Positions 38,733 through 60,817 of a stretch of 64,000 nucleotides of DNA are shown piece by piece. Origin of the DNA: Immundisolibacter cernigliae. Its GTDB lineage: Bacteria; Pseudomonadota; Gammaproteobacteria; Immundisolibacterales; Immundisolibacteraceae. Location of the stretch: contig NZ_CP014671.1 in the NCBI RefSeq assembly GCF_001697225.1, positions 2,914,001 through 2,978,000 on the forward strand, given 5' to 3'. Every line of letters starts with the position of its first letter. The stretch's first letter is position 1. A model generated the notes under the pieces. That model had not been told where the DNA came from, did not search any database, and saw only the letters and a program-made list of their open reading frames with translations. The position numbers were made by a program, and so were the translations under genes.

Positions 38733-39590
38733 ATGCAGACGAAATTGAAATTGACGGCCCTGGCCGGCGCGGTGGCGCTGGCGCTGGGCGCGGGCCAGGC
38801 TTCGGCCAGCATCGTGCCCTCCTCTCCCAGCGGCGACAGCGAGATGGTGCTGTCGGTATGGGATGCGGCGCGCAACACCTCCTACACCCTGGATCTGGGC
38901 TTTCTCCAGGGCACGCTGACGCCGACCGGCGTGAGCTCGCAAAGCGGCATCATCTCCAACAGCGGCGCGCTGGTGATGAGCTTTGCCGCCGACGCCCTGC
39001 TGACGCAGTTCCTGGCCGACTCGTCCGCCTTCGGCAGCCTGGGCAGGGTGCTGTGGAACGTGGTGGGCGGTGACGGGACTGGCACTCTGGCCAATACCCG
39101 CAAGGTGCTGATCACCGCGCGGTCCACTGTCGGGGAGTCCACCATCGAGCTGCTGAACGGCACCCAGATGAACAACATGTTGGGTGCATTCAATGGCTAC
39201 GTGTCGCAGGTCAACACGCTGGCCCCGCACATGACCACGGACAATGGGTCGAACATCGAGGTGGTCGGCGATAGTCTGGGTAACGACTTTGCCTACGCCG
39301 GCGGCGCCGGTTGGAATACCTCTTTCGGCGGTAACGGCAACTTCAACAACGCCGGCGCGCTGGGCGAGGGGCTCAACTTCTGGTCTTTGTCGAATGCCGG
39401 CGGTGCGAGCGGCAAGATCAGCGCCACGCAGTTCTTCGGGGCCGCGACGGCGCCGGCGATCTGGACCCTGGCCAGCAACGGCACCCTGACCTTCGCCGCC
39501 GTGCCGGAAGCCGAGACCTGGGCGCTGCTGGGCCTGGGCCTGCTGGGTGCCGGTGCCGTGGCGCGCCGCCGCAGCCGGGCGCTGGCCTGA
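38733..39590 (+). CDS. PEP-CTERM sorting domain protein
   Basis: The 285-residue protein has an N-terminal signal peptide (KLKLTALAGAVALALGAGQASA) and a Ser/Gly/Asn-rich body. The C-terminus is a PEP-CTERM signal: VPEAETWALLGLGLLGAGAV followed by an Arg cluster. Such proteins are processed by an exosortase and end up at the surface or in the extracellular matrix. No exosortase lies in the window, so it must be elsewhere. The ATG at 38733 has GAGGGAG at 38718-38724. It is preceded by a candidate PHO box and a c-di-GMP-type riboswitch. The function of the body is unknown. Confidence 0.88.
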   Translation: MQTKLKLTALAGAVALALGAGQASASIVPSSPSGDSEMVLSVWDAARNTSYTLDLGFLQGTLTPTGVSSQSGIISNSGALVMSFAADALLTQFLADSSAFGSLGRVLWNVVGGDGTGTLANTRKVLITARSTVGESTIELLNGTQMNNMLGAFNGYVSQVNTLAPHMTTDNGSNIEVVGDSLGNDFAYAGGAGWNTSFGGNGNFNNAGALGEGLNFWSLSNAGGASGKISATQFFGAATAPAIWTLASNGTLTFAAVPEAETWALLGLGLLGAGAVARRRSRALA

Positions 39591-39630
39591 GCGGCGCTTG
39601 ACGGCCTGAGCGGTTGGTGGTGTCCGAAGC

Positions 39631-39835
39631 TTCGGCCCGCGGGCGGGCCTCCCACGGGGGATCGATTCCCCTGTGGGGGCGGCGCCCTCGCCGCGAATCT
39701 TCGTAGCCACTCATTCGGCCCGAGGGCGGGCCTCCCACGGGGAGCTCTCCTGTGGGAGCGGAACCCCTGTGGGAGCGGCGCCCTCGCCGCGAATCCGGGT
39801 GAGCCACCTGTTCGGCCCGAAGGCGGGCCTCCCAC
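39631..39835. repeat. REP-like palindrome array 3
   Basis: Type a and type b units alternate between the PEP-CTERM and PstS-like genes; one b unit is truncated. The array takes up most of the 335-base gap. The remaining 90 bases before 39926 carry the ribosome site (GGAG, about 10 bases before the ATG) but no clear PHO box. Confidence 0.85.
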
Positions 39836-39925
39836 GAGGGCGAGCCTTCCACAGGAAGGCGAATCCTCGGACGCAATGTTCGTTTCCCTGACTTTCTCGA
39901 CATTTCATTCAATGGAGTCCTTGCA

Positions 39926-41452
39926 ATGACCCTGTTCAAACTGAATCCGCTGGCGGCGGCCTGTGCCGCGGCGCTGAGCCTGTCCGCCGGCCAGGCGCTG
40001 GCGCTGACCGCGTTCGAGGCACCGGACGTCGACATCTACCTGTCCGGTGCCTCGGCGCCGCAGAACCTGCTGGGCGAAATCGCCAAGAAGATGTTCGTCG
40101 GGACCGAAGGCACCGACTACTTCGTCTACTACGACAACGGCGGCACGCCGGCGCTCGGCACCACCAGCGACGATGGCAAGAGCTACCGCGCCTACTATGG
40201 CGTGGTGAAGAACGACCCCAGCATCAAGACCAGCCTGCACGGCAAGAAGGTGCTGCTGGTCAACCGCGCCAAGGGCGGCTCGGTGTGGGGCGTGAACCCG
40301 GTGGCGCGCGCCGAGGCCATCGCCACCATGAAGATCGATGCCGCCTCCTGCGTGCTGGACGCCGGCAAGTACCGCTGCCCGCAGGTGGGTAACGATCTTG
40401 CCGTCGATGCCAACAACCGGATACCGGATTTTGGCGTGTCGGACGTCGAGCCGAACATGTTCAAGGGTCCGCTGAACGTCGAATTCGGTGCCACGCAGCT
40501 CGACCCGGAGCAAGCGACCGTGTTCGCCGGCACCCAGTTCGGCGCCAACTCGCTGATGATGGGTATCGTCGCCACCAACGCCGTGCCCGACACGCTGCCG
40601 ATCAGCCACGCCGAGTACGGCGCCATGCTGTCCGGTCTCATCGGCGACTGGAGCCAGGTGGCCGACGGCAGCACCACCGGCGCGGTGGCGGTGTGCCGCC
40701 GCGTGCAGGGCTCCGGCACGCAGGCCAGCTACAACTGGTTCTTCAACAACTTCCCCTGCGCCAAAGACGGCCTGCACGGCACCTCCGCCAGCACGGAGCC
40801 GGCGCGCATGGTGGACAGCGCCGGTTACAACGGCGCCCATGCCGGGACCGCGGCTGACCCGATCCTGATCGATCCGAGCGCGGGCTACACGGTGGTGGAG
40901 AATCCCTCATCGGGTAACGTGCGCGACTGCCTGGCGCGGGCCCAGTCCGGTACGGATCACCAGTTCACCGGCGACGACGGCAAGGTCTACAGGGTCCAGT
41001 TCAGCAAGGCATCGGCCACCAAGGCCATCGGCGTGTTGTCGCTGGACAGCCTGGGCAGCGAGAACGGCTGGTCGTTCCGCGCCTTGGATGGCGCCGGCAA
41101 ACTGACCGGCATCGGCACGTTTGTCTGCAGCAATGCCAATCAGCTCGAGTGCGGCATCGCGCCGGTCAAGGCCAACCACCGCGAAGGGCGTTACGACTTC
41201 GCCGTCGAGCTGTCGTTCCAGTACCGCAACACGACGGTCAACGCCGTGCCGGCCCTGGGCGGCCTCAAGAAAGACGTGGCCGACGAGTTCGTCGAGCTGA
41301 TCGGCGACCCGACCGTGCTGAACACGCTGGCGGCCGGCCCGAAGGAAGCCACCATCGCGCTGCCGATCAACTACGACCCGACTTTGGACACCAACGTCGC
41401 CAAGGCGACTCACTACGGCAACACCTGCGCGCCGCTGCAGAAGTCTTTCTGA
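39926..41452 (+). CDS. PstS-like periplasmic substrate-binding protein
   Basis: The 508-residue exported protein has a signal peptide ending near GQALALTAF. The mature start VDIYLSGASAPQNLLGEI resembles the phosphate-binding loop region of PstS-like proteins. It is longer than a classical PstS (about 330 residues), with inserts rich in Cys pairs. No permease genes are adjacent, so it is unlikely to be a simple ABC uptake component. I recall similar proteins next to phosphate-regulated secretion loci in Pseudomonas. The phosphate ligand is inference. It is a separate unit, ending in a strong terminator. Confidence 0.68.
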   Translation: MTLFKLNPLAAACAAALSLSAGQALALTAFEAPDVDIYLSGASAPQNLLGEIAKKMFVGTEGTDYFVYYDNGGTPALGTTSDDGKSYRAYYGVVKNDPSIKTSLHGKKVLLVNRAKGGSVWGVNPVARAEAIATMKIDAASCVLDAGKYRCPQVGNDLAVDANNRIPDFGVSDVEPNMFKGPLNVEFGATQLDPEQATVFAGTQFGANSLMMGIVATNAVPDTLPISHAEYGAMLSGLIGDWSQVADGSTTGAVAVCRRVQGSGTQASYNWFFNNFPCAKDGLHGTSASTEPARMVDSAGYNGAHAGTAADPILIDPSAGYTVVENPSSGNVRDCLARAQSGTDHQFTGDDGKVYRVQFSKASATKAIGVLSLDSLGSENGWSFRALDGAGKLTGIGTFVCSNANQLECGIAPVKANHREGRYDFAVELSFQYRNTTVNAVPALGGLKKDVADEFVELIGDPTVLNTLAAGPKEATIALPINYDPTLDTNVAKATHYGNTCAPLQKSF

Positions 41453-41531: not shown

Positions 41532-41560
41532 GTCTGGCGTGGTGGGTATCAGTCGGCTCT

Positions 41561-41815
41561 GTGGGAGCGGCGCCTTCGTGGGAGCGGCGCCCCGCCGCGA
41601 ATCTCCAGACCACCCATTCGGCCCGAGGGCGGGCCTCCCACAAACAGCGAATCGTGGGAGCGGCGCCCCCGCCGCGAATCCTCCAGCCAATCATTCGGCC
41701 CGGGGGCGGGCCTCCCACAGGGTGGCCAAATCTTCAGGCCACTTGGATTGTGGGAGCGGCGCCCTCGCCGCGAATCCTCCAGCCAATCATTCGGCCCGAG
41801 GGCGGGCCTCCCACG
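41561..41815. repeat. REP-like palindrome array 4
   Basis: About seven type a and type b units lie between the terminator and the FhaC-type gene. With the terminator and a PHO-box-like element they account for almost all of the 452-base gap 41453-41904. Confidence 0.85.
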
Positions 41816-41826
41816 CTGGATTGAAC

Positions 41827-41904: not shown

Positions 41905-43503
41905 GTGTCGTGTTTCCGACCTTTTGCTGTGGACGGCCCCTTGGCGAGCAAATCGATACGACGTGTTCTTGGCGCGTCGCTGCTGGGTGTTTGTGCGCTG
42001 GCCCGGGCCGCCGAGGCGCCGGCGCGCTTCGACGTGTGGGAGTACCGGGTGAACGGCAATTCGCTGCTGCCACAGACCACCATCGAAAAGGTGGTGTACC
42101 CGTTCCTGGGCCCGGACCGCAGTTTCGAGGACGTGGATGCGGTGCGCGGCGCGCTGGAGGAGGCCTACGCCGAGGCCGGTTACCGCACCGTGGCGGTCAA
42201 TCTGCCGCAGCAGGAAGTGCGTGGCGGCGTGGTGCAGATCGAGGTGGTGGAACGGCCGGTCGGCCGCTTGCGCGTCAGCGGCGCGCGCTATTTCTCGCCG
42301 GAGCGCATGAAGGCCGCCGTGCCGGCACTGGCCGAGGGCACGGTGCCGCATTTCCCGACCGTGCAGCAGCAGCTGGATCGCCTGCGCGGCAATCCGGACC
42401 GCGAGTTCTTCCAGGTGCTGCGCGAGGGCCGCAGCGAGGACGAGGTGGAAGTGGAACTCAAGGTCAAGGACCGCTCGCCGCTGCACGGCACGCTGTCGCT
42501 GAACGACCGCTACTCGGCCAACACCGAGCGCCTGCGCAGCACCGTCAGCCTGCGCTACGACAACCTGTGGCAGCGCGAGCACGGCGCCGGCCTGACCTGG
42601 ATCACCGCCCCGCAGAGCCCGGCCGATGCCACCGTATTCGTTGCCACCTACAGGCTGCCCTTCGGCGGCGACCGGCGCGTGCTGGCGCTGTACGCGGTGC
42701 ACTCCGAAAGCGACGTGGCGGCGCTGGGCGGCGTCGGCGTGATCGGCAACGGCGACATCTTCGGCGCCCGCTGGGCGCTGCCGCTGGGCGGCGACGCCAG
42801 TTTCTGGCACTCCCTGACGCTGGGCGTGGATTACAAGAAGTTCGACGAGACGCTGAACCTGCTGGGCGCCGACGCCGTCAACACGCCCATCGGCTACACG
42901 CCGTTCCTGGCCGAGTACAGCGCCACCCGTCGCGACGAGCCCGGTTTCTGGCAGGGCACCGTGGCCCTGCATTTCGCGCCGCGCGGCCTGCTGGGCAACG
43001 ACGAGGCCGAATTTGCCGACAAGCGCTTCAATGCCAAGCCCAATTTCGTTTACCTGAACACCGGCATCGAGCGGCAGCGGCGCCTGCCGGGCGGCTTCGG
43101 CCTGAACCTGAGCATCGACGGCCAGCTTGCCGACGCGCCGCTGATCAGCAACGAACAGTACGCCGCCGGCGGTGCCGACACCGTGCGCGGCTATCTGGAG
43201 GCCGAGGAACTGGGCGACCGGGGCGTGCGCGGCGGCATCGAGCTGTCGCGGCCGATCGGTGGCGTGCCGGGCATCGACGAACTGATCGCGCTCAGTTTCG
43301 TCGAGGGGGCGCGTCTGTGGACGGTGGATGCCCTGCCCGGGCAGGACGATCGCCTGCAACTGGCCAGCGCGGGTGTCGGCCTGCGCCTGAAGCTGCGCAA
43401 GCAGCTGAGCACGGCGGTGGATTTCGCCCTGCCGCTGACCGACGCCTCCACCACGCAGGCCGGCGACTGGCGCTGGCTGTTCGCCCTGGACTATGCGTTC
43501 TGA
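41905..43503 (+). CDS. FhaC/ShlB-type two-partner secretion pore
   Basis: This is an Omp85-superfamily outer-membrane transporter that exports the large exoprotein encoded next. After a signal region (RRVLGASLLGVCALARAAEA) come POTRA domains (FDVWEYRVNGNSLLPQTTIE and the VEVVERPVGRLRVSG region) and a 16-strand barrel. The barrel has the conserved tip motif VRGYLEAEE and a C-terminal Phe (WLFALDYAF). The start is uncertain among GTG 41905, GTG 41929 and TTG 41941; none has a good ribosome site. The exoprotein start is 8 bases after the stop. Confidence 0.92.
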   Translation: MSCFRPFAVDGPLASKSIRRVLGASLLGVCALARAAEAPARFDVWEYRVNGNSLLPQTTIEKVVYPFLGPDRSFEDVDAVRGALEEAYAEAGYRTVAVNLPQQEVRGGVVQIEVVERPVGRLRVSGARYFSPERMKAAVPALAEGTVPHFPTVQQQLDRLRGNPDREFFQVLREGRSEDEVEVELKVKDRSPLHGTLSLNDRYSANTERLRSTVSLRYDNLWQREHGAGLTWITAPQSPADATVFVATYRLPFGGDRRVLALYAVHSESDVAALGGVGVIGNGDIFGARWALPLGGDASFWHSLTLGVDYKKFDETLNLLGADAVNTPIGYTPFLAEYSATRRDEPGFWQGTVALHFAPRGLLGNDEAEFADKRFNAKPNFVYLNTGIERQRRLPGGFGLNLSIDGQLADAPLISNEQYAAGGADTVRGYLEAEELGDRGVRGGIELSRPIGGVPGIDELIALSFVEGARLWTVDALPGQDDRLQLASAGVGLRLKLRKQLSTAVDFALPLTDASTTQAGDWRWLFALDYAF

Positions 43504-43510: not shown

Positions 43511-46500
43511 ATGACCGAGCGCTTACCGAAGTCGCGGATTCGGCCCGAGGGCGGGCCTCCCACAGGCAAAGATCCGCTGTGGGAGCGGCGCCCCCGCCGC
43601 GAATCTCCAGACCAGCCATTCGGCCCGGGGGCGGGCCTCCCACGGGGTGGCGATTCGGCCCGAGGGCGGGCCTCCCACAGGGAAAAAATCCTGTGGGAGC
43701 GGTCCCCCGGTGGGAGCGGCGCCCCCGCCGCGAATCTTCAGGAGAGCCCCTCCCAGAGCGGATCTCCTTTCTGGCCGGCCCCGCGGCGGCTGCTCGCCAC
43801 CGCGCTGGCCATTTCCGCCACCCTGCAGCACAGCCTGCTGTGGGCGGCGCCGTCGCTGCCGGCCGGCACGCTGCCGGTGCCGGCCGCCGCCTGGGTGGCC
43901 AGCGGCGCGGCCAGCCGCGCGGTCAGCGGCGCCAACATGACCATCACCCAGCAGTCGCAGCGGGCGGTGCTGGACTGGCAGTCGTTCAACCTCTCGGCCG
44001 ATGCCAAGGTGCGCTTCGATCAGCCGAACTCCACCGCGGCGGCGCTCAATCGCATCCACGACGCCAACCCGTCGGTCATCCAGGGCCAGCTCACCGCCAA
44101 CGGCGAGGTGTACCTGATCAACGCCAACGGCATCCTGTTCGACCGGGGTGCGCAGGTGAACGTCGGCGGGCTGGTGGCCTCGGCGCTGGGCATCTCGCAG
44201 GACACCTTCAACGCCGGCCTGCTCAGCGTGCCGCTCGGTCAGGCGGCGTTTTCCTTCGGCGGCGACGCCGAGGCCTTTGCCAGCAGCGAGGTGGCGGTCG
44301 AGGCCGGTGCGCAGATCAGCGCCGCCAATGGTGGCCGGGTGATGTTGCTGGCGCCGCGGGTGCGCAATGCCGGCAGCATCAGCACGCCGCAGGGCCAGGC
44401 GGTGCTGGCCGGCGGCGACAAGGTGTATCTGGCCCTGCCGCAGTCCTCGCAACTGCGCGGTTTTCTGGTGGAAGTGGACCCGCACGCCACTGCCGGCGGC
44501 GGCAGCGTAGTCAACGCGCTCGGGGCGCGCGTGCACGCCGACCGCGGCAATGTGACGCTGGTCGGCTCCACGGTGCGTCAGGACGGCGAGGCCAGCGCCA
44601 CCAGCGCGGTGGGACTGAACGGCTCGGTGCGCCTGTTGGCGCGCGACGGCGCCACGGCCAGCGGCGACACGCTGGTGGCCAACAATGGCGGGGCGCTTAC
44701 GCTGGGTAGCGGCAGTGTCACCGCCGTCACCCCTGTCGACGATTCGGCCACTGCGCGCGACGATGCACCGTTCGCCGCGTCCAGCATCGAGCTGGCGGGC
44801 CGCACCGTGCATCTGCAAGGCGGCGCGCAGGTGCTGGCGCCCGGTGGCAACGTGAGCATCAGCGCCCAGCGCGGCGCGCAGTTCGTGGCCGATGGCGCGG
44901 CGCGCGAGGACGTGCGCGTGCAGATCGACGCCGGTGCGCGGGTGGACGTGTCCGGCCTGCGCGAGGTGCCGGTGCCGGTGGAGCGCAACGTGGTCGGCGT
45001 CGAGCTGCGCGGCGACGAACTGAAGGATTCGCCCCTGCAGCGCGACGGCTTGCTGCGCAACAAGACCGTGTTCGTCGACGCCCGCGTCGGCACCGGGCTC
45101 GCCGACGCTTCGGGCGCGCTGGCCGGCATCGAACGTGGCATAGCCGAGCGCAGCACCTCCGGCGGCGACATCACGCTGCGCTCCGAGGGCGACGTGATCG
45201 TGCGCAGTGGCGCGGTGCTGGACGTGTCCGGCGGGTCGGTGCTCTGGCAGGGCGGCGTCATCGGCACCACGCTGCTGGTGGGCGAGGATGGCCGCCTGTA
45301 CGACATCAGTGTCGCCAGCCCGGATCGGCGCTACCTGGCGATCGCCGGCCGCTACGCGATGACCGACCCCAAGTGGGGCGTGACACGCGAGTACAACACC
45401 CTGCCCGGTCGCTACGAGGCGGCCTATGCGCAGGGCCGGCCGGCCGGGTCGATCAGCGTGCTGGCGCACCGGGCGGTGCTGGACGGCGACCTGCGCGGCC
45501 AGGTGGTTCTTGGGCCGCGCCAGCGCGCCGTGGCCGACCGGCCGGCCGCAGGCCGGCTGATTCTGGGCAATGCCGAAGCGAGCGGCGCGAGCCCCAATTT
45601 CATGCTGCCGGACCTGGCGCTGCTGGCAGCGCCACCGGCGCTGGATGACGGCTTCACCTTCGGGTTGCCCGACGCCCTGACACCGTTGCCGGCCGGCGCT
45701 GCGCAGCGGCTGGTGCTGGACCCGCAGCGCCTGGCGGCGGGCGGTTTCGGCACGCTCGAAGCCTACGTGAACGGCAGCATCGAGGTGAACGAGCCGGTGT
45801 CGCTGGCGCCCGGCGGCTCGCTGCGCCTGACCGGCCGCAGCCTGCAGGTGGCGGCCGACATCAGCGTGCCGGCCGGCAGCATCCGCCTGCAGACGCGGCG
45901 CACGGCCGGCTCGACCGACCTGACCGCCGCCGATCACGCGCTGGAGGTGGCCGGCGGCGTGCGCCTGTCGGCGGCCGGGCTGTGGAGCAACGATCGACTG
46001 GGCGCGCCGGCCGACCAGCTGGCCGCCGATGCCGGCTCGGTCACGCTCGATGCGGTCGCCGATCTGCGCCTGCACGCCGGCAGTGTGGTGGACGTGAGCG
46101 GCGGCGGCGAACTGGACCGCGACGGCGCGCTGCGCGGCGGCCGTGGCGGCGACATCACGCTGTCGGTGGGCCGTTTCAACCTGGGCGACAACGATCCGCA
46201 GACCAGCAGCATGCTCCTGGACGGCGCATTGCTGGGCCACGGCCTGACCGGTGGCGGGCGGCTGCAGGTATCGGCCTCCAGGGTGCAGATCGGCGGCGCG
46301 GCGCCGGGCGAACAGCGCGTGCTGCACCTGATGCCGGAATTTTTCCAGCGCGGCGGCTTCGGCGCCTACCAGGTGAACGGCCAGGACGGCCTGGATGTGG
46401 CCGACGGCACGCGCATCGCGCCGCGTACGCAGACCTTGCGCCCGCTGGGCGAACTGACTTTGTTGCCGACCGGGCGGTCCCTGGCGGACCTGACCACGCC

Positions 46501-52500: not shown

Positions 52501-53665
52501 GGAGGTGCTGGCCGCCGATGATGTGGATCTGGGCTCCGGCGGTGGCATCGTCACGCGCGGCAATCTGAACAATCCGTTCCTGCCCGATGAGGGCGCCGCG
52601 GCGCTAGTGATGGCCGGTCTGGGCCAGTCGCCGGCGTATGGCGAGTTCGCCGCCCTGTACCTGGACCCGGCCAGTGCGCTGGCGGCGCCATACCAGGACG
52701 GGCTGCTCGCGTATCTGCGGGCTCTGGGCATCGAGCCGGCCGATGCGCAGGACGCTTTCGCCCGCTTCGCCGCGCTGCCGACCGAGCGCCAGGCACCCTT
52801 GCTGCACGACGTGCTGTTTGGCGAATTGCGTGCCGCCGGACGCCGGGCCGTGGCCGAAGGCGGCGACGACCCGGCGCGCTACCGGCGCGGCTTCGACGCC
52901 ATCGCGGCGCTGTTTCCGGGCGCCGGCAGCGAGCAATCGCCGTACCGCGGCGACATCAACCTGTTCTTCAGCCAGATTCGCACCGAACAGGGTGGCGGCA
53001 TCGACCTGATCGCGCCGGGCGGCCAGGTGAACGCCGGCCTGGCCAGCGTGACCGGTTTCAACAAGAGCGCCAGCGAGCTGGGCATCGTCACCGTGCGCGG
53101 CGGCAGCGTGCGCGCCTTTACCGACGGTGACTTCCTGGTCAACCAGTCGCGCGTGTTCACGCTCGGCGGCGGCGACATCCTGCTGTGGTCCTCGCGCGGC
53201 AACATCGACGCCGGCCGCGGCGCCAAGAGTGCCGGTGCCACGCCGGCGCCGCAGCTGGTGCTGCGTGGCGACCAGTTCGTGCTCGACACCTCGCGTTCGA
53301 TCAGCGGCTCGGGCATTGGTGTGCTGCTGTCGAGCCCGGACATCGTTCCGGGCGACGTGGACCTGATCGCGCCCAACGGCGAGGTCAACGCCGGAGACGC
53401 AGGTATTCGCTCGGCCGGCAACCTGACCATCGCCGCGCCGCGCGTGGTCGGCGCCGACAACATCCAGGTCGGCGGTGTGTCGAGCGGTGTGCCGGTGACC
53501 AGTACCGCCGTGTCCGGCAGCCTGGCCGGCGCCGCCGCTACCGGCAGCACCGCCACCAAGGCCGCCGCCGATGCGGCCGCGGCCGGCGCCGTGTCCGCCG
53601 CCGCCGGCGCGGTCACCGATTCTCTGGGCACGGTGACGGTGGAAGTGCTCGGTTTTGAAGGATGA
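43511..53665 (+). CDS. Filamentous haemagglutinin-like two-partner secretion exoprotein (about 3,384 residues)
   Basis: This huge surface or secreted protein has a signal segment (PAPRRLLATALAISATLQHS, ending near LLWAAP) and a TPS secretion domain (NMTITQQSQRAVLDWQSFNL, VYLINANGILFDRGAQV). Thousands of residues of Gly/Ala/Asp-rich beta-helix repeats follow. A C-terminal region resembles DUF3739 (YFFTYGAQASVDVQALTGDV), then an Ala-rich linker and the tail GTVTVEVLGFEG. The ATG at 43511 has GAGGTGG before it and is the only standard start upstream of the signal segment. The frame therefore runs through a REP array, adding about 85 Arg/Pro/Gly-rich residues before the signal peptide. The probable role is adhesion or another surface function; no enzymatic domain was recognised. 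Confidence 0.9.
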   Translation: MTERLPKSRIRPEGGPPTGKDPLWERRPRRESPDQPFGPGAGLPRGGDSARGRASHREKILWERSPGGSGAPAANLQESPSQSGSPFWPAPRRLLATALAISATLQHSLLWAAPSLPAGTLPVPAAAWVASGAASRAVSGANMTITQQSQRAVLDWQSFNLSADAKVRFDQPNSTAAALNRIHDANPSVIQGQLTANGEVYLINANGILFDRGAQVNVGGLVASALGISQDTFNAGLLSVPLGQAAFSFGGDAEAFASSEVAVEAGAQISAANGGRVMLLAPRVRNAGSISTPQGQAVLAGGDKVYLALPQSSQLRGFLVEVDPHATAGGGSVVNALGARVHADRGNVTLVGSTVRQDGEASATSAVGLNGSVRLLARDGATASGDTLVANNGGALTLGSGSVTAVTPVDDSATARDDAPFAASSIELAGRTVHLQGGAQVLAPGGNVSISAQRGAQFVADGAAREDVRVQIDAGARVDVSGLREVPVPVERNVVGVELRGDELKDSPLQRDGLLRNKTVFVDARVGTGLADASGALAGIERGIAERSTSGGDITLRSEGDVIVRSGAVLDVSGGSVLWQGGVIGTTLLVGEDGRLYDISVASPDRRYLAIAGRYAMTDPKWGVTREYNTLPGRYEAAYAQGRPAGSISVLAHRAVLDGDLRGQVVLGPRQRAVADRPAAGRLILGNAEASGASPNFMLPDLALLAAPPALDDGFTFGLPDALTPLPAGAAQRLVLDPQRLAAGGFGTLEAYVNGSIEVNEPVSLAPGGSLRLTGRSLQVAADISVPAGSIRLQTRRTAGSTDLTAADHALEVAGGVRLSAAGLWSNDRLGAPADQLAADAGSVTLDAVADLRLHAGSVVDVSGGGELDRDGALRGGRGGDITLSVGRFNLGDNDPQTSSMLLDGALLGHGLTGGGRLQVSASRVQIGGAAPGEQRVLHLMPEFFQRGGFGAYQVNGQDGLDVADGTRIAPRTQTLRPLGELTLLPTGRSLADLTTPLLEDLPQRPAADLSLAAGSLAFGDLRLGAGSVIDADPGAAVALSAGRQLTVLGQINAPAGSIALSTQPGGGPDDAYHFGQSIWLGAAAALRATGYAELLPDAQGLRRGQVLPGGSVSLDAGKGYVIAEAGSLIDVSGTSAVLDIQLADRTRDVKVPGTTATDDAAVVPTVIASGGGRIAITAREGGILAGELRGTAAPGAAGGSLTVVLERPPVSNVGFPTGPVRLELGSAVPELPVGLAPGEDVPDNGVLRLGATQVAAGGFADLTLASRDRIDFTTDLDLRLSGRLTLSAPELGASAGTQVLLAGQSIQVANPGSLQAPRAAASGDADLELRADLIDLAGEVALQGIDTLRLDSAGDLRLRGVLAGSSSRELNGRLHGAGEVSVRAAQVYPTTLSRFRIEADRQISIAAAPASATQPLSAAGELTLAAPRIDQAGTLRAPFGTLSLVGDDIHLRDGSLSSVSGAGLLVPFGRTELGGRDWAYALAGDANLLLFDTLPDKAISLDGSTVDIAAGARLDVRGGGDLLAHEFLPGPGGSRDVLAPANVAGGFAVLPGLGAGAAPFDHQIASEGQFAPGELVWLGGVPGLAAGFYSKLPARYALLPGAFLVTPTTAVADVSDTFQLGLPLGDYLVAGREARELASGPLAAARSSIYNVQSGAVLARRAEYAPLRASEFFAHSGGGQVADAGRVSIAAREDLILAGNLLTAAAAGGRGGALDIAAPRLAVLGGGALAPGADYVTLDAGHLSSLGVASLLLGGTRRQDGAVDALTVVAQDVVVDTGGAVLSAPDLIVAARQQVSVRSGSQLQAGAGAAPGRALEIGADGDGDGALLRLAAQPTARTVRVNVNRDRGDLVIEAGAQLAANGSIELDATRNNTLGGDLRLAAGGELAVAAGSVSLGAAPVGTPGLLLDAARLAGLAGAGALALRSYSTLDVYGAVNLGGAGLASLTLETGSLRGFLGAGELAQLQARRLTLGNPSAGSGDAAVASNGTLRLLADQLILADGGRAGDGMVAGTQVSGVQRLELVANERLEFTGRGRLDVAGDLAISAGLVSAAGAADHGVTATGALSTAALAAPTDAPTGGVGARIGLTGASMQHGGRLRLPSGQVTLAATAGDVSLEAGSVLDAASVWQAFGSGGRASPAGSVVLRADAGDVMVLAGAQVDLRGRDGADAGRLELSAPAGTVTLAGELLASATADGAGRRGQGGEASVDVASLSDFSALNQALENGGFAGERQLRVRTGDVLIGAGDTVTTQRFGLAVDGGGLTVAGHIDARGGKGGRVALYAHDSLVLADGAVIDAFATDAAGAGSAGRGGQVELGSDSGLDLVAGSVIDVSAGAGANAAQGGQVLLRAPRVGTTDVAIGSVGSAIHGAREAVVEAVRRYEDISTLNTGGAGALSLATLSADNAAFMTSAASIASRLGQSGNPLFHLRPGVEVRSSGNLTLASDWQLLPLRAGGEPGLLTLRAAGNVLLNGSLSDGFSTATTAGVLQAGESWSYRLVAGADLDAADPLAVRPSGDDIGDITLAANKMVRTGTGDIALAAARNLKLNANTSVIYTAGQVGPAVDDFTAPTIGGVLAQFPTAGGDLRIAVGRDIDAAPAAQLPTAWLFRQGRVNADDGSAITANRTAWWLRYGEFKQGVGALGGGDVDIRAGGDVRNLGVSLPTNARLPSAAGSVPDAAQLVLQGGGDLDLRAGGDIGSALLFLGAGSGRVRAGGDIASARTAGGQPVNALALLGDARLALTAGGEVALDAVANPTVLSQVSANISGVANTKKNYFFTYGAQASVDVQALTGDVRFAQNRLAVLQGYPAHGIASSDQAALGMLPPNLAAAAFRGSIDLLGDAVLYPAPAGSLILQAAGDLSLLGTLAMSDLLPASLPSVALPANVFGSVNRLSVAPSGVLAHGNPPLHAGDAEPARLAAGGALRGQPGAVSLVLPKAALLEAGDDIANLWLFGQHLAATDVTRVVAGGQIRYDTPRNALGALGSSSNRLELGGPGRLEVLAADDVDLGSGGGIVTRGNLNNPFLPDEGAAALVMAGLGQSPAYGEFAALYLDPASALAAPYQDGLLAYLRALGIEPADAQDAFARFAALPTERQAPLLHDVLFGELRAAGRRAVAEGGDDPARYRRGFDAIAALFPGAGSEQSPYRGDINLFFSQIRTEQGGGIDLIAPGGQVNAGLASVTGFNKSASELGIVTVRGGSVRAFTDGDFLVNQSRVFTLGGGDILLWSSRGNIDAGRGAKSAGATPAPQLVLRGDQFVLDTSRSISGSGIGVLLSSPDIVPGDVDLIAPNGEVNAGDAGIRSAGNLTIAAPRVVGADNIQVGGVSSGVPVTSTAVSGSLAGAAATGSTATKAAADAAAAGAVSAAAGAVTDSLGTVTVEVLGFEG
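43537..43738. repeat. REP-like palindrome array 5, inside the exoprotein reading frame
   Basis: Alternating type a and type b units lie between the ATG and the signal-peptide codons of the exoprotein gene. In this frame they have no stop codon and translate as WERRPRRES- and RPEGGPPTG-like segments. Confidence 0.88.
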
Positions 53666-53904: not shown

Positions 53905-55653
53905 ATGTTGCGTTTTTCTTGTGCCCGTTTGTTACTGACCGTGGCGCTGCTGGTGCCGCCGCTGGCCCATGCCTGGTGGCAGCCGGACTGGCAGTTTCGA
54001 AAGCCCCTGACGGTGCAGCCGCCGGCCGAGGAAGCCGGTCTTGCGGCCAGCGACCTGCCGGTGCTGCTGCGTCTGCACGCCGGCAATTTCGGTTTTTTTG
54101 CCGATACCAAACCGGACGGCGCGGACCTGCGCCTGCTGGCGGGCGACGACACGACGCCGCTGAAGTACCACATCGAACGCTATGACCCGGTCACCGGCAT
54201 GGGTCTGCTGTGGGTGCGCATGCCGCAGCTGGCGGCCGGTGCGCCGGCCAGCGCCTATCTTTATTACGGCAACGCGGCGGCGCCCGCCGGTGATGACGCG
54301 GCTGGCACTTACGATGCCGAACAGGCGCTGGTGTTTCATTTCGGCGAGGCGCAGGGCGCGCCGCGTGACAGCACCGCCAACGCCAATCACGCGGCCGAGT
54401 CGGGCGCGCAGGCAGTGGCTGCCAGTCTGATCGGCGGCGGTCTGCGCTTCACCGGCAGCGAGACGCTGCGCGTGCCCGGTTCGGCCTCGTTGGCGATCGA
54501 CCCGGCCAAGGGGCTGACGGTCAGCCTGTGGATCCGGCCCGATGCGGTCGCCAGCGGCGCCGTGCTGGAACTGGGCATTGCCGAGCAGCCGTTGCTGCTG
54601 AGCCTGGCCGACGGCGTACCGCTGGCACGGATCGGCGCGGTCGAGGCGCGCGCCGCCGCACCGCTGTCAGCCGGCGAGTGGCACCACCTGGCGCTGACCG
54701 TGGATGCCGGCACGGCGACGTTGTACGTCGATGGCGCGCCGGCGGGCAGCGCGGCGGTAGAGCTCAAGCCGATCGCCGGCGATCTGGTGCTCGGCGCCGG
54801 TCCGTTGGCGCAGGCGGCGGGTCTGGCCGGCCTGGCGGCGGACATCGACGAGTTCGGCCTGGCCCGGGTGGCGCGTGACGCGGGTTATCTGCGCCTGCTG
54901 GCCCTCACGCAGGGCACCGCGGCGAGTCTGATCAGTTACGGCGAGGACGAGTCCGGCGAAGCCGCCGAAGGGCATGGCTCGTACATCGGCGTGGTGTTGC
55001 AGAACGTGACGCTGGATGGCTGGATCATCATCGGTCTGCTCAGCGTGATGTCGGCAATCTCCTGGGTGGTCATGGCCAGCAAGGCGCGCTTTCTGAGCAC
55101 CGTGCGGCGGGCCAATGCGAAGTTCCTGGAAAGCTTTCGCAGCATAGGCGACGGCGATCTGACGGCTCTGGCGGCGCGCACCGAGTTCGCCGGCTCGCCC
55201 CTGCACCGGGTTTGCGTGGCCGGCGTGCAGGAGCTGACCGGGCGCCTGCACCGCAGTGCCGGTGCGCAGGCGACGGGTCTGTCGCCGCAGGCCCTGGAGG
55301 CGCTGCGCACGCGCATCGACGCGTCCGCAGCGCGTGAGCAGCAGCGCCTGAACGCCGGCATGGTGCTGCTGACAATCGCCATTTCCGGCGGGCCCTTCCT
55401 GGGCCTGCTGGGTACCGTGGTGGGCGTGATGATCACCTTCGCCGCCATCGCCGCATCGGGCGAGGTGAACGTCAACTCGATCGCGCCGGGCATCGCCGCC
55501 GCCCTGGTGGCCACGGTGGCGGGCCTGGTGGTCGCCATCCCGGCCCTGTTTGGCTACAACTACCTCGGCACCCTGATCCGCGACACGACCACGGACCTGC
55601 GCGTGTTCGTGGACGAGCTGGTGGCGGGCATCGCCGAGCAGCACACGGCATAA
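53905..55653 (+). CDS. exbB: ExbB/TolQ/MotA proton channel with N-terminal DUF2341 and lectin-like domains
   Basis: The 582-residue protein has a signal peptide (MLRFSCARLLLTVALLVPPL, cut near AHA), a DUF2341 domain opening with WWQPDWQFRK, and a LamG/concanavalin-like domain around residues 165-335 (LTVSLWIRPDAV, GEWHHLALTVD). An ExbB-type channel with membrane helices follows from about 370, with GTVVGVMITFAAIA and the final VATVAGLVVAIPALFGYN helix. The channel would use the proton gradient with ExbD and TonB while the large N-terminal part faces the periplasm. The frame stays open to an ATG at 53662 overlapping the exoprotein stop, but the ATG at 53905 gives a normal signal peptide. Confidence 0.88.
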   Translation: MLRFSCARLLLTVALLVPPLAHAWWQPDWQFRKPLTVQPPAEEAGLAASDLPVLLRLHAGNFGFFADTKPDGADLRLLAGDDTTPLKYHIERYDPVTGMGLLWVRMPQLAAGAPASAYLYYGNAAAPAGDDAAGTYDAEQALVFHFGEAQGAPRDSTANANHAAESGAQAVAASLIGGGLRFTGSETLRVPGSASLAIDPAKGLTVSLWIRPDAVASGAVLELGIAEQPLLLSLADGVPLARIGAVEARAAAPLSAGEWHHLALTVDAGTATLYVDGAPAGSAAVELKPIAGDLVLGAGPLAQAAGLAGLAADIDEFGLARVARDAGYLRLLALTQGTAASLISYGEDESGEAAEGHGSYIGVVLQNVTLDGWIIIGLLSVMSAISWVVMASKARFLSTVRRANAKFLESFRSIGDGDLTALAARTEFAGSPLHRVCVAGVQELTGRLHRSAGAQATGLSPQALEALRTRIDASAAREQQRLNAGMVLLTIAISGGPFLGLLGTVVGVMITFAAIAASGEVNVNSIAPGIAAALVATVAGLVVAIPALFGYNYLGTLIRDTTTDLRVFVDELVAGIAEQHTA

Positions 55654-55665: not shown

Positions 55666-56070
55666 ATGCAGGTCCAGGAAGAAGGCAAGCCCTACGACGA
55701 CATCAACATCGTGCCGATGCTCGATCTCACGTATGTGCTGCTCATCATCTTCATCATCATGACCACGGCGGCGGTGCAGGGCATCCAGGTCAACCTGCCC
55801 AAGGCCAGCGCCACGCCGAGCCTGGGCCAGAACCAGACCAAGGCCATCTCGATCACGGCCGACGGAACGATCTATCTGGACACCTACCCGGTCACGCTGG
55901 CCGAGCTGGAAACCACCCTGCGCGGCTACAAGGCGGCCAACCCGGCGCTGCCGGTGGTGGTCAAGGCCGACGCCAGCATCCAGTACCAGCAGGTGGTGGA
56001 CGTGCTGGACCTGCTGGGGCGGCTGGAAATCTCCCAGCTCGGCCTGGTGACCCAGCGCCTGGTCAAGTAG
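55666..56070 (+). CDS. exbD: ExbD/TolR biopolymer transport protein
   Basis: The 134-residue protein has one N-terminal membrane helix with the essential Asp (VPMLDLTYVLLIIFIIM, D20) and a periplasmic domain typical of ExbD. It lies 12 bases after the ExbB gene with GGGAGA before the ATG, forming the stator pair. Confidence 0.94.
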   Translation: MQVQEEGKPYDDINIVPMLDLTYVLLIIFIIMTTAAVQGIQVNLPKASATPSLGQNQTKAISITADGTIYLDTYPVTLAELETTLRGYKAANPALPVVVKADASIQYQQVVDVLDLLGRLEISQLGLVTQRLVK

Positions 56071-56177: not shown

Positions 56178-56230
56178 GGGGCGCTGCCTGCGGCCGATCC
56201 GTCGGCCGGCAATACGATGCTGCGTTCGGC

Positions 56231-56869
56231 ATGAAATCCGTGCTGAGAAAGCTGCTGCCCCTTGCCGTGGCGCTGGCGGTGATCATCGGTCTGGGGCTGA
56301 TCGTGCGCAGTCTGCTGTCGCAGGCGCCGGCCCCCGATCCGCGCCGGCCGCAGGAGGTGACGCTGATCAAGCCGCCGCCTCCGCCGCCGCCGCCCAAGGA
56401 ACAACCACCCCCGCCGGAAGTGAAGGAAGAGGTGGACATCCCGGAACCGGAAGCGGTGCCGGAAGACGTTCCCGAGGCGGCCAACGAGCCACCGCCGGGT
56501 GAGGCGCTGGGCGTGGATGCCGAGGGTGGTGCCGGCGGCGATGGCTTCGGTCTGGCCGCCCGCAAGGGCGGGCGCGACCTGTTGCAAAGCGGTGGCGGTG
56601 ATGGCGAAGCCTGGCTGCGCGGCGAGCTGGATCGGGTGCTGACGGCTGCGCTGAGCAACGACGAGACACTGCGGCGCAAGCGCTTTCGGGTGCCGGTGCG
56701 CATCGAGCTGGCGCCGGATGGGTCGGTGCTGCGGGTGGAGTTGCTGAGCAGCACCGGCGATCGCGAGGTCGATCGGCTGCTGGAGGCCCGCCTGGGCGGC
56801 GTGCGCCTGTCCGATCCGTTGCCGGCCGGTGTGCGCCGCGTGGTGCGCCTGCGCGTCGGGTCGGTGTGA
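56231..56869 (+). CDS. TonB-like energy transducer
   Basis: The 212-residue protein has the TonB layout. A short cytoplasmic start and one membrane helix (LAVALAVIIGLGLIV) come first, followed by a proline-rich spacer (KPPPPPPPPKEQPPPPEV). A Gly-rich link leads to a C-terminal TonB/TolA-like domain (RVPVRIELAPDGSVLRVELL). It would carry force from ExbB-ExbD to an outer-membrane partner. No TonB-dependent receptor is encoded nearby; the FhaC-type pore or the porin are candidate partners. No TonB box was identified in either. Confidence 0.85.
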   Translation: MKSVLRKLLPLAVALAVIIGLGLIVRSLLSQAPAPDPRRPQEVTLIKPPPPPPPPKEQPPPPEVKEEVDIPEPEAVPEDVPEAANEPPPGEALGVDAEGGAGGDGFGLAARKGGRDLLQSGGGDGEAWLRGELDRVLTAALSNDETLRRKRFRVPVRIELAPDGSVLRVELLSSTGDREVDRLLEARLGGVRLSDPLPAGVRRVVRLRVGSV

Positions 56870-56928: not shown

Positions 56929-58563
56929 ATGAATTCGATGCGGCCGACGCCTATGTTGCGTGCACGGCGATTGGCGACGGGGATTACGCTGCTGGCCTTG
57001 ACGGGTGTCGCGGCTGCGGACGAGCGCGCCGACCTTGAAAAGCTGCGCGCGACGGTCACCGGCCTGATCGGTGCGCTGGTCGAGCAGGGCGTGCTCAGTC
57101 GCGAGGCGGCCGACGGCATGATCAAAAAGGCCGAAGCCGACGCTGCGCGCACCGTCGCGGCGCAGGCCCAGCAGGCCCCGCCGGCCAGGCCCGGCGAGGT
57201 ACGCGTGACCTACGTGCCGCAGATCGTGAAGGACGAGATTCGCGCCCAGGTGCGCGACGAGCTGCGCCAGGAGGTGGCGCAGGACGTGATTGACCGCGCC
57301 CGTCAGGAGCAATGGGGCGTGCCGGCGGCGCTGCCGGACTGGGTGGCGCGCCTGAAGTTCAAGGGCGACCTGCGCCTGCGCGGGCAGAGCGACCGCTTCG
57401 CCGACGGCAACGCGCAGTTCGCCTATTTCGACTTTCTCGAAATCAACAACGCCGGCGGGCTGGCCGATGCCGGCGCGGACGGTCTGCTGAACACTTCCGA
57501 GGACCGCGACCGGTTGCGTGCCCGCGCGCGTCTGGGGCTGGACGTGACCATCACTGACAGCCTGCTGGCCGGGTTTCGCCTGGGCACCGGCAACACCCGC
57601 GATCCGGTGTCGACCAACCAGACCCTGGGCAACACCGGCAACCGCTACGAGACAGTGCTCGACCAGGCCTTCCTGCGCTACCAGGCGGCCGGCGCCACGC
57701 CCTGGCTGACCGCCTGGGGCGGGCGTTTCGACAGTCCCTGGCTGTCGACGGACCTGGTGTGGGACGGTGATCTTGGTTTCGAGGGCGCCGCCGCCACGCT
57801 GCGGCACGACTTCGTCGGCTCTGGACAGCCAGCGCGTGGCGTGTTCCTGACCGCTGGTGCCTTTCCGCTGCAGGAAGAGGAACTGTCCTCAAAGGACAAA
57901 TGGCTGTTCGGTGGTCAGCTCGGTCTCGATCTGGCCTTCGCCGACCAGTCCCGTCTGAAGGCCGGCCTCGCCTACTACCATTTCAGCCACGTCGTCGGTC
58001 GGCGAAACGACCTTGACGGCATCGAGTTCGACTATACGGCGCCCGAGTACCTGCAAAAGGGCAACACGCTGTACGACATCCGCAACGACGCCGACCCGCA
58101 GTCGCAGTTGTTCGCGTTGGCGTCCGACTACCACCTGCTGGATCTGACGGTGCAATACGACATTGCCCGGTTCGCGCCGTATCACGTGATCCTGACCGGC
58201 GATTTTGTGCGCAACGTCGGTTTCGACGAGGACGAGGTCGCAGCGCGCATCGGCCAGCCCATCGAGGCGAAGATCAACGGCTATCAGTTCATGGCCAGCG
58301 TTGGCTGGCCGCAGGTGACGGCTGCCGGCCGCTGGCGCGTGTTCGGCGGCTACAAGCACCTGGAACGCGACGCGGTGCTGGATGCCTTCACCGATTCGGA
58401 TTTCCATCTGGGCGGCACCGATGCCAAGGGCTGGATTCTGGGCGGCGACTACGGCCTGGCGCGCAACACCTGGCTGACGATGCGCTACCTGAGCGCGGAC
58501 GAGATCGATGGCCCGCCGCTGGGTATCGACGTGCTGCAGCTCGACCTGAACACGCGCTTCTGA
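56929..58563 (+). CDS. Putative outer-membrane porin with N-terminal coiled coil
   Basis: The 544-residue protein has a signal peptide, a helical segment (about 30-120, KLRATVTGLIGALVEQGVLS and further), and a barrel of amphipathic strands ending in a terminal Phe (LQLDLNTRF). It belongs to the putative porin family seen in such secretion loci. The ATG at 56929 has GGAGG a few bases upstream. It probably forms an outer-membrane channel tethered by its N-terminus, but the passenger is unknown. Confidence 0.85.
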   Translation: MNSMRPTPMLRARRLATGITLLALTGVAAADERADLEKLRATVTGLIGALVEQGVLSREAADGMIKKAEADAARTVAAQAQQAPPARPGEVRVTYVPQIVKDEIRAQVRDELRQEVAQDVIDRARQEQWGVPAALPDWVARLKFKGDLRLRGQSDRFADGNAQFAYFDFLEINNAGGLADAGADGLLNTSEDRDRLRARARLGLDVTITDSLLAGFRLGTGNTRDPVSTNQTLGNTGNRYETVLDQAFLRYQAAGATPWLTAWGGRFDSPWLSTDLVWDGDLGFEGAAATLRHDFVGSGQPARGVFLTAGAFPLQEEELSSKDKWLFGGQLGLDLAFADQSRLKAGLAYYHFSHVVGRRNDLDGIEFDYTAPEYLQKGNTLYDIRNDADPQSQLFALASDYHLLDLTVQYDIARFAPYHVILTGDFVRNVGFDEDEVAARIGQPIEAKINGYQFMASVGWPQVTAAGRWRVFGGYKHLERDAVLDAFTDSDFHLGGTDAKGWILGGDYGLARNTWLTMRYLSADEIDGPPLGIDVLQLDLNTRF

Positions 58564-58588
58564 CGCGCCGGCAGCGGAGGACATGCGC

Positions 58589-59227
58589 ATGATCCGGCGA
58601 TGTGGGCTGCTGATGACGACCCTGCTGCTGGCGGCCAGCCTGCCGGCGCAGGCGGAGGCGGTGCGCCGCCCGGCCAGCGGGGCGGCCGGCGCCCAGGTGC
58701 AGGCGCTGCTGCAACAGATATCGGCCGAGCGCGATGCCCTGAAGGCCGACGCCGCGCGCATGAAGGCCGATCTGGAAAAAGCCCGGCAGGAGCGTGACGC
58801 CGCGCAGGCCAAGGTGGACGGCGCCGAGCAGGAGGCGGCTCGACTGCGCGAGGCACTGGCGGCCTTCCAGGCCCAGAACGAGGCCCTGCGCGCGCGTCTG
58901 GGCGAAGCGCAGACGGCAATCGGCGGGCTGCGCGGCGAACAGTCGGCCACCAGCGCGGCGCTGACGCAGGCACGCGCCCGAGGCGAGGCGCTGGATGGCG
59001 ATCTGGCGCAGTGCCGGGCGCGCGTGGACGAACTGGTCGGGCACAACCTGCGCCTGTTCGAGATCGGCAACGAGCTGCTGGATCGTTACGAGCGCAAGGG
59101 TGTGTGGTCCACACTCAAGGCCGCCGAGCCGTTTACCGGCCTCAAGCGCGTGGAGCTCGAGAACATCGTGCAGGACTACCGTTTTGCGCTGGACGACCAG
59201 CGCGTCGCCGCACCTGCTGCGCAGTGA
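58589..59227 (+). CDS. Exported coiled-coil protein of unknown function
   Basis: The protein of about 212 residues has a signal peptide (RRCGLLMTTLLLAASLPAQA), a long coiled coil (about 35-150, rich in Ala, Glu, Gln and Arg), and a compact C-terminal segment. That segment reads LFEIGNELLDRYERKGVW, then EPFTGLKRVELENIVQDYR. Its sharp conservation-like character contrasts with the low-complexity coil. The ATG at 58589 has GGAGG eight bases upstream; the ATG at 58583 is two bases from it. The stop overlaps the next start. Confidence 0.75.
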   Translation: MIRRCGLLMTTLLLAASLPAQAEAVRRPASGAAGAQVQALLQQISAERDALKADAARMKADLEKARQERDAAQAKVDGAEQEAARLREALAAFQAQNEALRARLGEAQTAIGGLRGEQSATSAALTQARARGEALDGDLAQCRARVDELVGHNLRLFEIGNELLDRYERKGVWSTLKAAEPFTGLKRVELENIVQDYRFALDDQRVAAPAAQ

Positions 59228-59895
59228 CGGTGGCGTCGGTCGTGGGGCCGCCCTGGGCGCGGCCGCTGCCGTGGGTGTTGCCGTTCGCGGTGTTCGTCGG
59301 GCTGCTGGCGGCAGCGCCACTGGCACAGCGTGCGGGTGTCGACCCGCGCGACTGGTACGCCGTTCGCACCGGCGTGACGCTGCTGGTCCTCGCTGTGATG
59401 TGGCGGCGTTGTGTCGATCTGCATCGCGCGCCGTACTGGCGCGGTGTGGCGCTGGGCGTCGCCGCCGGTGGGCTGGTGCTGGCGCTGTGGCTGGCGCTGG
59501 ATCAGGACTGGGCGAGTCTTGGCGCGCCGCAGGTCTCCCCCTTCGCGGCCGACGACACGGCCCGGTGGCAGTTCGCCGCGCGCATCGCCGGCGCCGTGAT
59601 CGTGGCGCCGCTGGCCGAGGAGCTGTTCTTTCGCAGTTTTCTCATGCGCTGGCTGGTGCGGCCGGACTTTGCGGCAGTCGATCCGCGCGCCGTGGACCGG
59701 CGGGCGTTTCTGATCCAGGCGGCGCTGTTCGCCAGCATGCATCAGCTCATTGTGGCCGGATTCGCGGCCGGGCTGGTCTACGGCTGGCTGTATCGGCATA
59801 CCGGCAGCCTGTGGATCCCGGTGCTGGCGCATGCGCTGACCAACGCGCTGCTGGCGGCCTGGGTGCTGACGCAGGGCGCCTGGCATTTGTGGTGA
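59224..59895 (+). CDS. CPBP-family intramembrane protease (CAAX protease-related)
   Basis: The 223-residue membrane protein has several helices. The glutamate motif EELFFRSFLMRW and two later His motifs (FASMHQLIV and VLAHALTN) define the CPBP/Abi glutamic protease family. A related subfamily occurs with PEP-CTERM/exosortase genes, as I recall, which suits a locus with a PEP-CTERM protein. The GTG at 59224 overlaps the stop of the coiled-coil gene as GTGA. The substrate is unknown; it may process a component of this locus. Confidence 0.82.
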   Translation: MTVASVVGPPWARPLPWVLPFAVFVGLLAAAPLAQRAGVDPRDWYAVRTGVTLLVLAVMWRRCVDLHRAPYWRGVALGVAAGGLVLALWLALDQDWASLGAPQVSPFAADDTARWQFAARIAGAVIVAPLAEELFFRSFLMRWLVRPDFAAVDPRAVDRRAFLIQAALFASMHQLIVAGFAAGLVYGWLYRHTGSLWIPVLAHALTNALLAAWVLTQGAWHLW

Positions 59896-59914
59896 AGCTT
59901 TTTCGGATTTCCTC

Positions 59915-60817
59915 ATGACGCGTGACAGACGAAGCCTGCCGACGGTGGCGGGTGCGGTGGCCTTGTTGCTGGTGGCCGGATTCGTGGCGCGTGCCCTGAT
60001 GGGCAGCTCGGCGGTCCTGGCGCAGGCTGGTGATGCCCGGCTGACGCAGGCCGAAGCGCAGAGCCTGCTGGCGGCCCTGCCGGCGGCGACCCGCAAGCAG
60101 CTGGCCGAACAACCGCAGGCGCTTGCCGATGCCATGCGGCGCGAGGTGCAGTGGCGGGCGCTGGTGGAAACCGCCAGGCGCTCGCCGCAGGCCGCAGAGC
60201 CGGCGGTGCGGGAGCGCATGCGTCAGGCGGCCGACCTGGAGCTGGTGCAGGCGCACCTGGACGCCATGAGTGCCGTTGCTGACGATTACCCGCCGCAGGA
60301 GCTGGTGGTCGCCACGTATGAGGCCAACCGCGAGCGGTTTAGGGCCGCGCCGCGCTATCGCCTGTCGCAGATCTTTGTGGCCGGACGGCCGGACGATGCC
60401 GACGCGGCGCGGCGCGCGCGTGAGCTGGCGCAGGAAGCCCGCCTGGCCAAGGCCGACTTCGCCGACCTGGCACGCGAGCACTCGCGCCACGCCGAAAGCG
60501 CCGCCCGTGGCGGCGAGGTCGGTTGGGTGAGCGAGCCGATGCTGCGTCCGGAATTTCGCGAGACGGTGACCGCCATGGCGGTGGGGGCGATCAGCGATCC
60601 GGTGCCGGTCGCCGACGGCTGGCACATCCTGAAACTGACCGAGCGTCAGGCGGCGCGCGATCTTTCCCTGGACGAGGCGCGCGCCGACATCGTCAGCGCG
60701 CTGCGGGCGCAGGAACAGCGCCGGCGGCGCGCCGAATACGTCGAGCGCTTGACCGCCGCGATGCCGGTACGCCTCGATGAGCTGATGCTCGGCACGCTGC
60801 AGGTGCCGATCGAGTGA
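59915..60817 (+). CDS. Parvulin-type peptidyl-prolyl isomerase
   Basis: The 300-residue protein has a signal anchor or signal peptide (about 10-35), a helical SurA/PrsA-like N-domain and a parvulin (PpiC) domain from about 145 to 250. The domain shows YRLSQIFVAG, FADLAREHSRH, GGEVGWVSEPML and GWHILKLTERQ. It would fold exported proteins in the periplasm. It ends the secretion operon, 19 bases after the CPBP gene. A PpiC gene at this position also occurs, as I recall, in the Pseudomonas Pdt region. Confidence 0.88.
   Translation: MTRDRRSLPTVAGAVALLLVAGFVARALMGSSAVLAQAGDARLTQAEAQSLLAALPAATRKQLAEQPQALADAMRREVQWRALVETARRSPQAAEPAVRERMRQAADLELVQAHLDAMSAVADDYPPQELVVATYEANRERFRAAPRYRLSQIFVAGRPDDADAARRARELAQEARLAKADFADLAREHSRHAESAARGGEVGWVSEPMLRPEFRETVTAMAVGAISDPVPVADGWHILKLTERQAARDLSLDEARADIVSALRAQEQRRRRAEYVERLTAAMPVRLDELMLGTLQVPIE

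Follow-up and report, generated by a model that had tools for sequence, protein, structure and literature searches.

At the outer membrane, type V secretion is described as independent of ATP and of ion gradients, and what drives it is an open question (PMC5422565, PMC8151025). What, then, would a two-partner secretion locus do with an ExbB-ExbD-TonB motor of its own? We addressed this question for a locus of Immundisolibacter cernigliae lying in a stretch of 64,000 nucleotides (the window; bases 2,914,001–2,978,000 of a genome of 3.24 Mb on one contig), where genes for a TpsB pore, its giant TpsA exoprotein, ExbB, ExbD, a TonB-like protein, and a porin follow one another. We read the locus, with roughly even confidence, as a motor-coupled two-partner secretion system, the motor acting on the exoprotein tail and/or a porin arm to control display or release. 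A motor inherited with one two-partner class in several phyla, together with a substrate tag, gives a direct handle on whether some type V systems are energized.

Co-inheritance of the secretion pair, motor, and porin

In 2009, exbBD-tonB genes were reported to accompany two-partner secretion genes in Pseudomonas and some further genera (PMC2729926). The first-pass annotation of this DNA had likewise tied the motor to the secretion pair, and in relatives this linkage proved near-universal. Among 370 gammaproteobacterial genomes, the exoprotein domain DUF3739 exceeded its cut-off in 22, spanning 16 families; a PF12545 match in G203 fell below the cut-off and was excluded. DUF2341, which is fused to ExbB, was found in 28 genomes, including all 22 with DUF3739 (hypergeometric P = 2.5e-30, uncorrected for relatedness). 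The open reading frames (ORFs) of the six remaining genomes were mostly unlike the ~600-residue ExbB fusion in length, and that of G312 (569 residues), read as far as its contig allowed, matched ExbB weakly and in part only. Full-length Porin_5, scoring over 400 bits, occurred in the 22 DUF3739 genomes and in G349 only. Two-partner secretion domains of any kind were present in 129 of the 370 genomes; therefore, most two-partner systems lack this motor, and the DUF2341-ExbB motor marks one class of them.

To extend the comparison, 84,980 species genomes were scanned, which yielded at least 558 encoded relatives of the window ExbB; the best 80 were fetched, so that the set leans to close relatives. 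Synteny was counted in the 54 fetched neighborhoods with enough flank, from alpha-, beta-, and gammaproteobacteria, Verrucomicrobia, and Myxococcota. ExbD, TonB, and the porin accompanied ExbB in all 54, TpsA or TpsB in 53, and the coiled-coil protein in 52. Two main arrangements were found. In the window type the exoprotein lies ahead of ExbB, and the usual gammaproteobacterial order is PEP-CTERM, PstS-like, TpsB, TpsA, ExbB, ExbD, TonB, porin, and coiled coil, with local rearrangements. The second type, TpsB-ExbB-ExbD-TonB-porin-coiled coil, often followed by PpiC and/or TpsA, was found in Burkholderia, Bradyrhizobium, Dyella, Sphingomonas, and Verrucomicrobia. The conjugative Klebsiella quasipneumoniae plasmid pKqq_SB98_1 (L205) carries TpsB-ExbB-ExbD-TonB-porin-coiled coil-YbjN-PpiC. 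Ahead of this set lie VreAIR-like genes and the genes of two ~4,100-residue exoproteins, and the conjugative nature of the plasmid implies that the locus can move. The plasmid locus lies beside arsenic resistance genes, and a K. pneumoniae plasmid likewise carries an ExbB relative. Genes of type II secretion (GspE, GspF, and GspK) recur beside the loci (flanks of L058–L096 and L100–L159; L206), as those of Hxc do in P. aeruginosa.

These comparative data show that the secretion pair, motor, and porin form one co-inherited unit, with a tail specific to that unit (see below). Joint expression of components with independent jobs might in itself keep such genes adjacent, and in P. aeruginosa the homologous genes do belong to one phosphate-starvation regulon (PMC7035377); the genes nevertheless occur together almost without exception, and in conserved order, in different phyla and on plasmids, which makes co-regulation alone very improbable.

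A conserved tail motif at the exoprotein C terminus

After DUF3739, a variable linker rich in Ala and Ser leads to a short conserved strand close to the end of the exoproteins, such as LTVEVIGFGD, ISVEILGFGG, or VRVDVLGFGE (VTVEVLGFEG in the window). The strict pattern [ILV]xV[DE][VI][IL]G[FY]G[DE] matched 50 of 62 exoproteins, and most of the others showed recognizable variants. Since the pattern was drawn up after inspection of these tails, this count is descriptive; two background counts served as controls, with no match among 2,862 ORFs for other proteins in these loci or among 1,961 internal 70-residue exoprotein windows. The motif was likewise absent from the 12 readable C-termini of TpsA proteins without the motor (0/12). 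Both exoproteins of the Klebsiella plasmid, which has one pore and one motor, bear the motif ISVEILGYGDE.

An AlphaFold model of the last 480 exoprotein residues (mean predicted local distance difference test [pLDDT] 87.7) showed a confident beta-helix to approximately residue 423, with the remainder disordered. The model thus gives the tail the layout of a short, tethered binding motif. Foldseek searches with the C terminus returned weak beta-helix matches alone, none at E <= 0.001. TonB boxes ahead of plug domains in the same genome, picked by eye, read LTINITAG, PQITVQDD, RIVITAPE, and LVVTIEAP, and the resemblance of the tail strand to them is suggestive.

An N-terminal arm on the porin

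The AlphaFold model of the porin comprised N-terminal helices, a low-confidence linker containing VRVTYVP, a further helix, and a barrel of ~16 strands; its closest structural neighbor was trimeric OmpM1, with DcaP and others lower in the ranking. The arm motif was present in 70 of 91 porins, and residues Y95, V96, and P97 were nearly invariant in 45 sequences. In its loose form the motif also matched 71 of the 2,862 background ORFs and is thus less specific than the tail. Porin_5 matches other than the full-length ones lacked the N-terminal ~150 positions and consisted of the barrel only, with one weak exception, indicating that the arm goes with the motor. This near-confinement to motor-linked porins makes the arm a second candidate for contact with TonB. 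The porin of G349 (G349:C199:4282-5976) is full length and arm-bearing, in a genome without a DUF3739 or DUF2341 match whose assembly is fragmented (about 440 contigs).

Motor genes and genomic setting

Homology identifies the pore, exoprotein, channel, ExbD, TonB-type transducer, and porin of the locus. The assignment of the TonB-like protein draws on several lines: its TIGR01352 score of 23.2 bits is below the cut-off of 27.1, and it is below the Pfam cut-offs as well; an aligned relative passes TonB_2 (PF13103; 38.6 bits, cut-off 22); and a 96-sequence alignment revealed a TonB-like layout of one transmembrane helix, a proline-rich linker, a conserved G-rich stretch, and a putative TonB C-terminal domain.

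We then considered possible clients of the motor. None of the genome's five plug domains is encoded in the window, so that neither a TonB-dependent receptor serving as motor client nor an HxuC-like receptor beside TpsA/TpsB was found there. Further ExbB-family genes are also encoded elsewhere in the genome; together with the TonB-dependent receptors, they mark the motor set of the locus as a specialized one. The secretion pair is the only two-partner system of the genome, whose second ShlB-type POTRA match is BamA, with no further ones. The order containing this genome is represented by only eight genomes in the collection searched.

Additional motor sets were observed in relatives. Second DUF2341-ExbB/ExbD/TonB sets, without a porin or full-length exoprotein, occur at L068, L080, and L081 (genomes G126, G109, and G001), and a solo set on a Methylomagnum plasmid (L207 11602–22293) lies near PhoX, another alkaline phosphatase, and ribosomally synthesized and post-translationally modified peptide (RiPP) genes. 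The idea that solo sets adjoin other proteins with an exoprotein-type tail was rejected, as no such protein was found among the neighbors of L068, L080, L081, and others.

One flank of the window locus consists of housekeeping genes (GlnD, aminotransferase, DapD, dehydrogenase, and EF-Ts), and the opposite flank, with a Lon-type protein and a Mur ligase, is housekeeping too. These flanks bear on the possibility that the motor moves nothing and instead keeps the envelope around the pore stable or tethered, or reports tension or the state of the exoprotein to a regulator. The end of VreA-like proteins is TonB-like, and a PUMA3 protein fuses a receptor signaling domain with a TolA/TonB-like domain (PMC2729926); moreover, FecR/DUF4880 regulators recur beside Burkholderia-type loci, and VreAIR-like genes are part of the Klebsiella locus. 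No regulator of either kind, and no YbjN or LysR gene, was found among the flanking genes examined beside the window locus, however, and we consider a stabilizing or sensing role improbable.

Gene content and boundaries of the locus

The genes that the first-pass annotation had listed were all confirmed, on the + strand and in the order given (Table 1), and its comparison with PdtA/PdtB-ExbB2/ExbD2 was apt, the Klebsiella plasmid relative having the Pseudomonas order. It had overlooked the PstS-like gene, a member of the conserved island, which is thus larger than described: PEP-CTERM and PstS-like genes lead it in many relatives. It had also placed the membrane protease and the isomerase in its title, and these turned out to be lineage-specific additions.

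Table 1. Features of the motor-linked two-partner secretion locus, in window positions.
Feature	Position	Strand	Evidence or remark
PEP-CTERM surface protein	38733..39590	+	PF07589 22.5 bits (cut-off 20.7); first gene of the island in window-type loci
Exported PstS-like protein of the PBP superfamily, GSGT motif conserved	39926..41452	+	profile match to 5j1d
TpsB, FhaC/ShlB-type outer-membrane pore with POTRA	41905..43503	+	PF08479 59.8 bits; PF03865 49.1 bits
TpsA exoprotein, 3,384 residues from ATG 43511	43511..53665	+	PF05860 97 bits; TIGR01901 80 bits; PF12545 118 bits
DUF3739 domain, end of the exoprotein beta-helix	53168..53497	+	domain match and AlphaFold model
C-terminal tail motif VTVEVLGFEG on predicted disordered tether	53633..53662	+	motif counts and AlphaFold model
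ExbB: signal peptide, DUF2341 and LamG periplasmic domain, MotA/TolQ/ExbB channel	53905..55653	+	PF01618 96 bits
ExbD	55666..56070	+	PF02472 97 bits
TonB-like protein	56231..56869	+	TIGR01352; TonB_2 in a relative; 96-sequence alignment
Porin_5, predicted N-terminal helical arm and ~16-strand barrel	56929..58563	+	PF16930 605 bits; AlphaFold model
Porin arm motif VRVTYVP in predicted unstructured linker	57199..57219	+	motif counts, alignment, low pLDDT
Exported coiled-coil protein (PA0697 position)	58583..59227	+	in 52/54 complete neighborhoods
CPBP/CAAX-type membrane protease, accessory	59224..59895	+	TIGR03008 175 bits (cut-off 81)
PpiC-type parvulin, accessory	59915..60817	+	PF00639; in 13/54 loci

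In at least 10 relatives, a full-length homolog of the PEP-CTERM protein is encoded next to the PstS-like one. The window protein carries a PEP-CTERM signal above the cut-off, and an exosortase is encoded at 436 kb of the chromosome. A profile built from 13 relatives of the PstS-like protein matched the phosphate-binding protein 5j1d (E = 4e-5), a relative passes PF12849, and homologs lie beside TpsB/TpsA genes in 12 other loci. An exported thioredoxin-like (DsbC/DsbA-type) gene is located directly upstream (37153–37941), and a few relatives (L076, L080, and L091) have comparable genes close to their loci. The genome encodes no TIGR03008 member besides the CPBP protease, which lies far from the sole exosortase and is found at the locus in few lineages; the parvulin also occurs in Burkholderia/Bradyrhizobium/Verrucomicrobia-type loci. 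Owing to this restriction to few lineages, both were rejected as core members.

The PstS-like gene and the porin bring in the main rival of a motor-coupled secretion system, namely nutrient scavenging, in which the exoprotein would form a surface net for a polymer, phosphorus-rich or otherwise, TonB would energize the porin through its arm so that the catch is imported, and the PstS-like protein would receive it, as in haem capture by HxuA-HxuB-HxuC with a porin in place of the TonB-dependent receptor. This explanation accords with the GSGT-containing gene within the island, with the porin common to all 54 complete loci, with the phosphatases near the Methylomagnum solo set, and with the induction of the Pseudomonas homologs by phosphate starvation (PMC7035377). 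The Porin_5 protein has no plug domain, however, the PstS-like gene was not detected in Burkholderia-type loci, and scavenging leaves the exoprotein tail motif unexplained. Phosphatases were also absent from the most frequent flanking families of the loci, and Pho-box matches in the window were not above chance, for which reasons phosphate control of the window copy was rejected. We therefore regard scavenging as unlikely.

Several junctions had been described as overlapping or shorter than 20 bases. This held for ExbB-ExbD, porin-coiled coil, coiled coil-CPBP, and CPBP-PpiC, which are truly tight; others had been misread because over-extended ORF starts run through intergenic repetitive extragenic palindromic (REP)-like repeats. 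These repeats (TGTGGGAGCGGCGCC...GGCGGGCCTCCCAC) occupy intergenic gaps of the locus (37984–38447, 39631–39848, 41574–41827, 43539–43739, 53757–53858, and 56143–56178) and extend into the exoprotein and ExbB ORFs. Alignment and the signal peptide place the ExbB start at 53905, leaving a TpsA-ExbB gap of ~240 bp; the ExbD-TonB gap is ~160 bp. The first ~90 residues of the exoprotein are encoded by the repeats, and because no ATG, GTG, or TTG lies between 43511 and the exoprotein signal sequence, this REP-derived leader (43511–43780) may be translated. The sister species G001 also has a REP-derived in-frame leader ahead of the signal sequence (L087 2902–3300), with a different repeat number.

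Possible mechanism

By homology, TpsB exports the giant beta-helical exoprotein and the dedicated ExbB-ExbD-TonB complex draws on the proton gradient; in a motor-coupled system, this complex would act at the outer membrane on partners from the same locus. Its likeliest contacts would be two TonB-box-like strands on flexible periplasm-facing tethers, one in the tail at the exoprotein C terminus and one in the porin's N-terminal arm, and we infer that force exerted there would serve display or release. The tail would be the last part to remain in the periplasm after export, so that a TonB grip on it could keep the exoprotein on the surface or power the final stage of its display or release. The porin could be the outer-membrane anchor of the machine, and the large DUF2341-LamG part of ExbB may serve in the periplasm to recognize either the exoprotein or the coiled-coil protein. 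A more specific proposal, proton-powered type V secretion, in which TonB would bind the C-terminal TonB-box-like strand of the giant protein and the proton gradient would be used to complete, retain, or release that protein at the surface, the dedicated porin being the outer-membrane partner, is possible but doubtful.

Several points weigh against motor-coupled secretion. TonB pulls inward, which makes a simple "push out" role mechanically awkward; type V translocation proceeds in liposomes without energy (PMC5422565); the motor sets at L068, L080, L081, and L207 stand alone, without exoprotein or porin; and the porin arm motif rivals the exoprotein tail as the TonB partner.

Comparison with known systems

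The closest known counterpart is P. aeruginosa pdtA-phdA-pdtB-exbB2-exbD2-tonB4-PA0696..PA0699 of the PUMA3/VreI regulon, in which pdtB-exbB2D2-tonB4-PA0696-PA0701 are transcribed from a single promoter (PMC4971064). Both loci encode a giant exoprotein, an FhaC-type pore, ExbB/ExbD/TonB, a putative porin, an exported protein, and PpiC; in the window, however, the exoprotein lies between the pore and the motor, PEP-CTERM and PstS-like genes stand in front, and a CPBP protease is added. The pKqq_SB98_1 locus has the same organization as that of P. aeruginosa (PMC2729926, PMC7035377). In 2020, the Pseudomonas TonB set was called a "still uncharacterized putative TonB system" (PMC7035377). In the literature we searched, which left out most subscription papers, we found no use of the name DUF3739, and no study testing exbB2/exbD2/tonB4 for PdtA secretion or the role of the motor; nor did we find the tail motif, the porin with its arm, or the near-universal co-inheritance described, although earlier reports may exist. 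Haemophilus influenzae HxuC-HxuB-HxuA is likewise a two-partner system that works with TonB energy at the outer membrane (PMC5422565), although its TonB client is a TonB-dependent receptor, whereas the window locus has no plug receptor and encodes the motor itself.

Among porins, the predicted barrel fold and N-terminal helical stalk resemble those of OmpM1/DcaP trimeric porins with an N-terminal coiled coil; the window porin differs in that no SLH domain was found in it, in its VRVxYVP arm motif, and in its link to a motor. Finally, GldLM of type 9 secretion is an ExbB/ExbD-superfamily-like motor dedicated to secretion, as the motor described here may be, but, compared by description, its pore and substrates are unrelated to those of the window locus.

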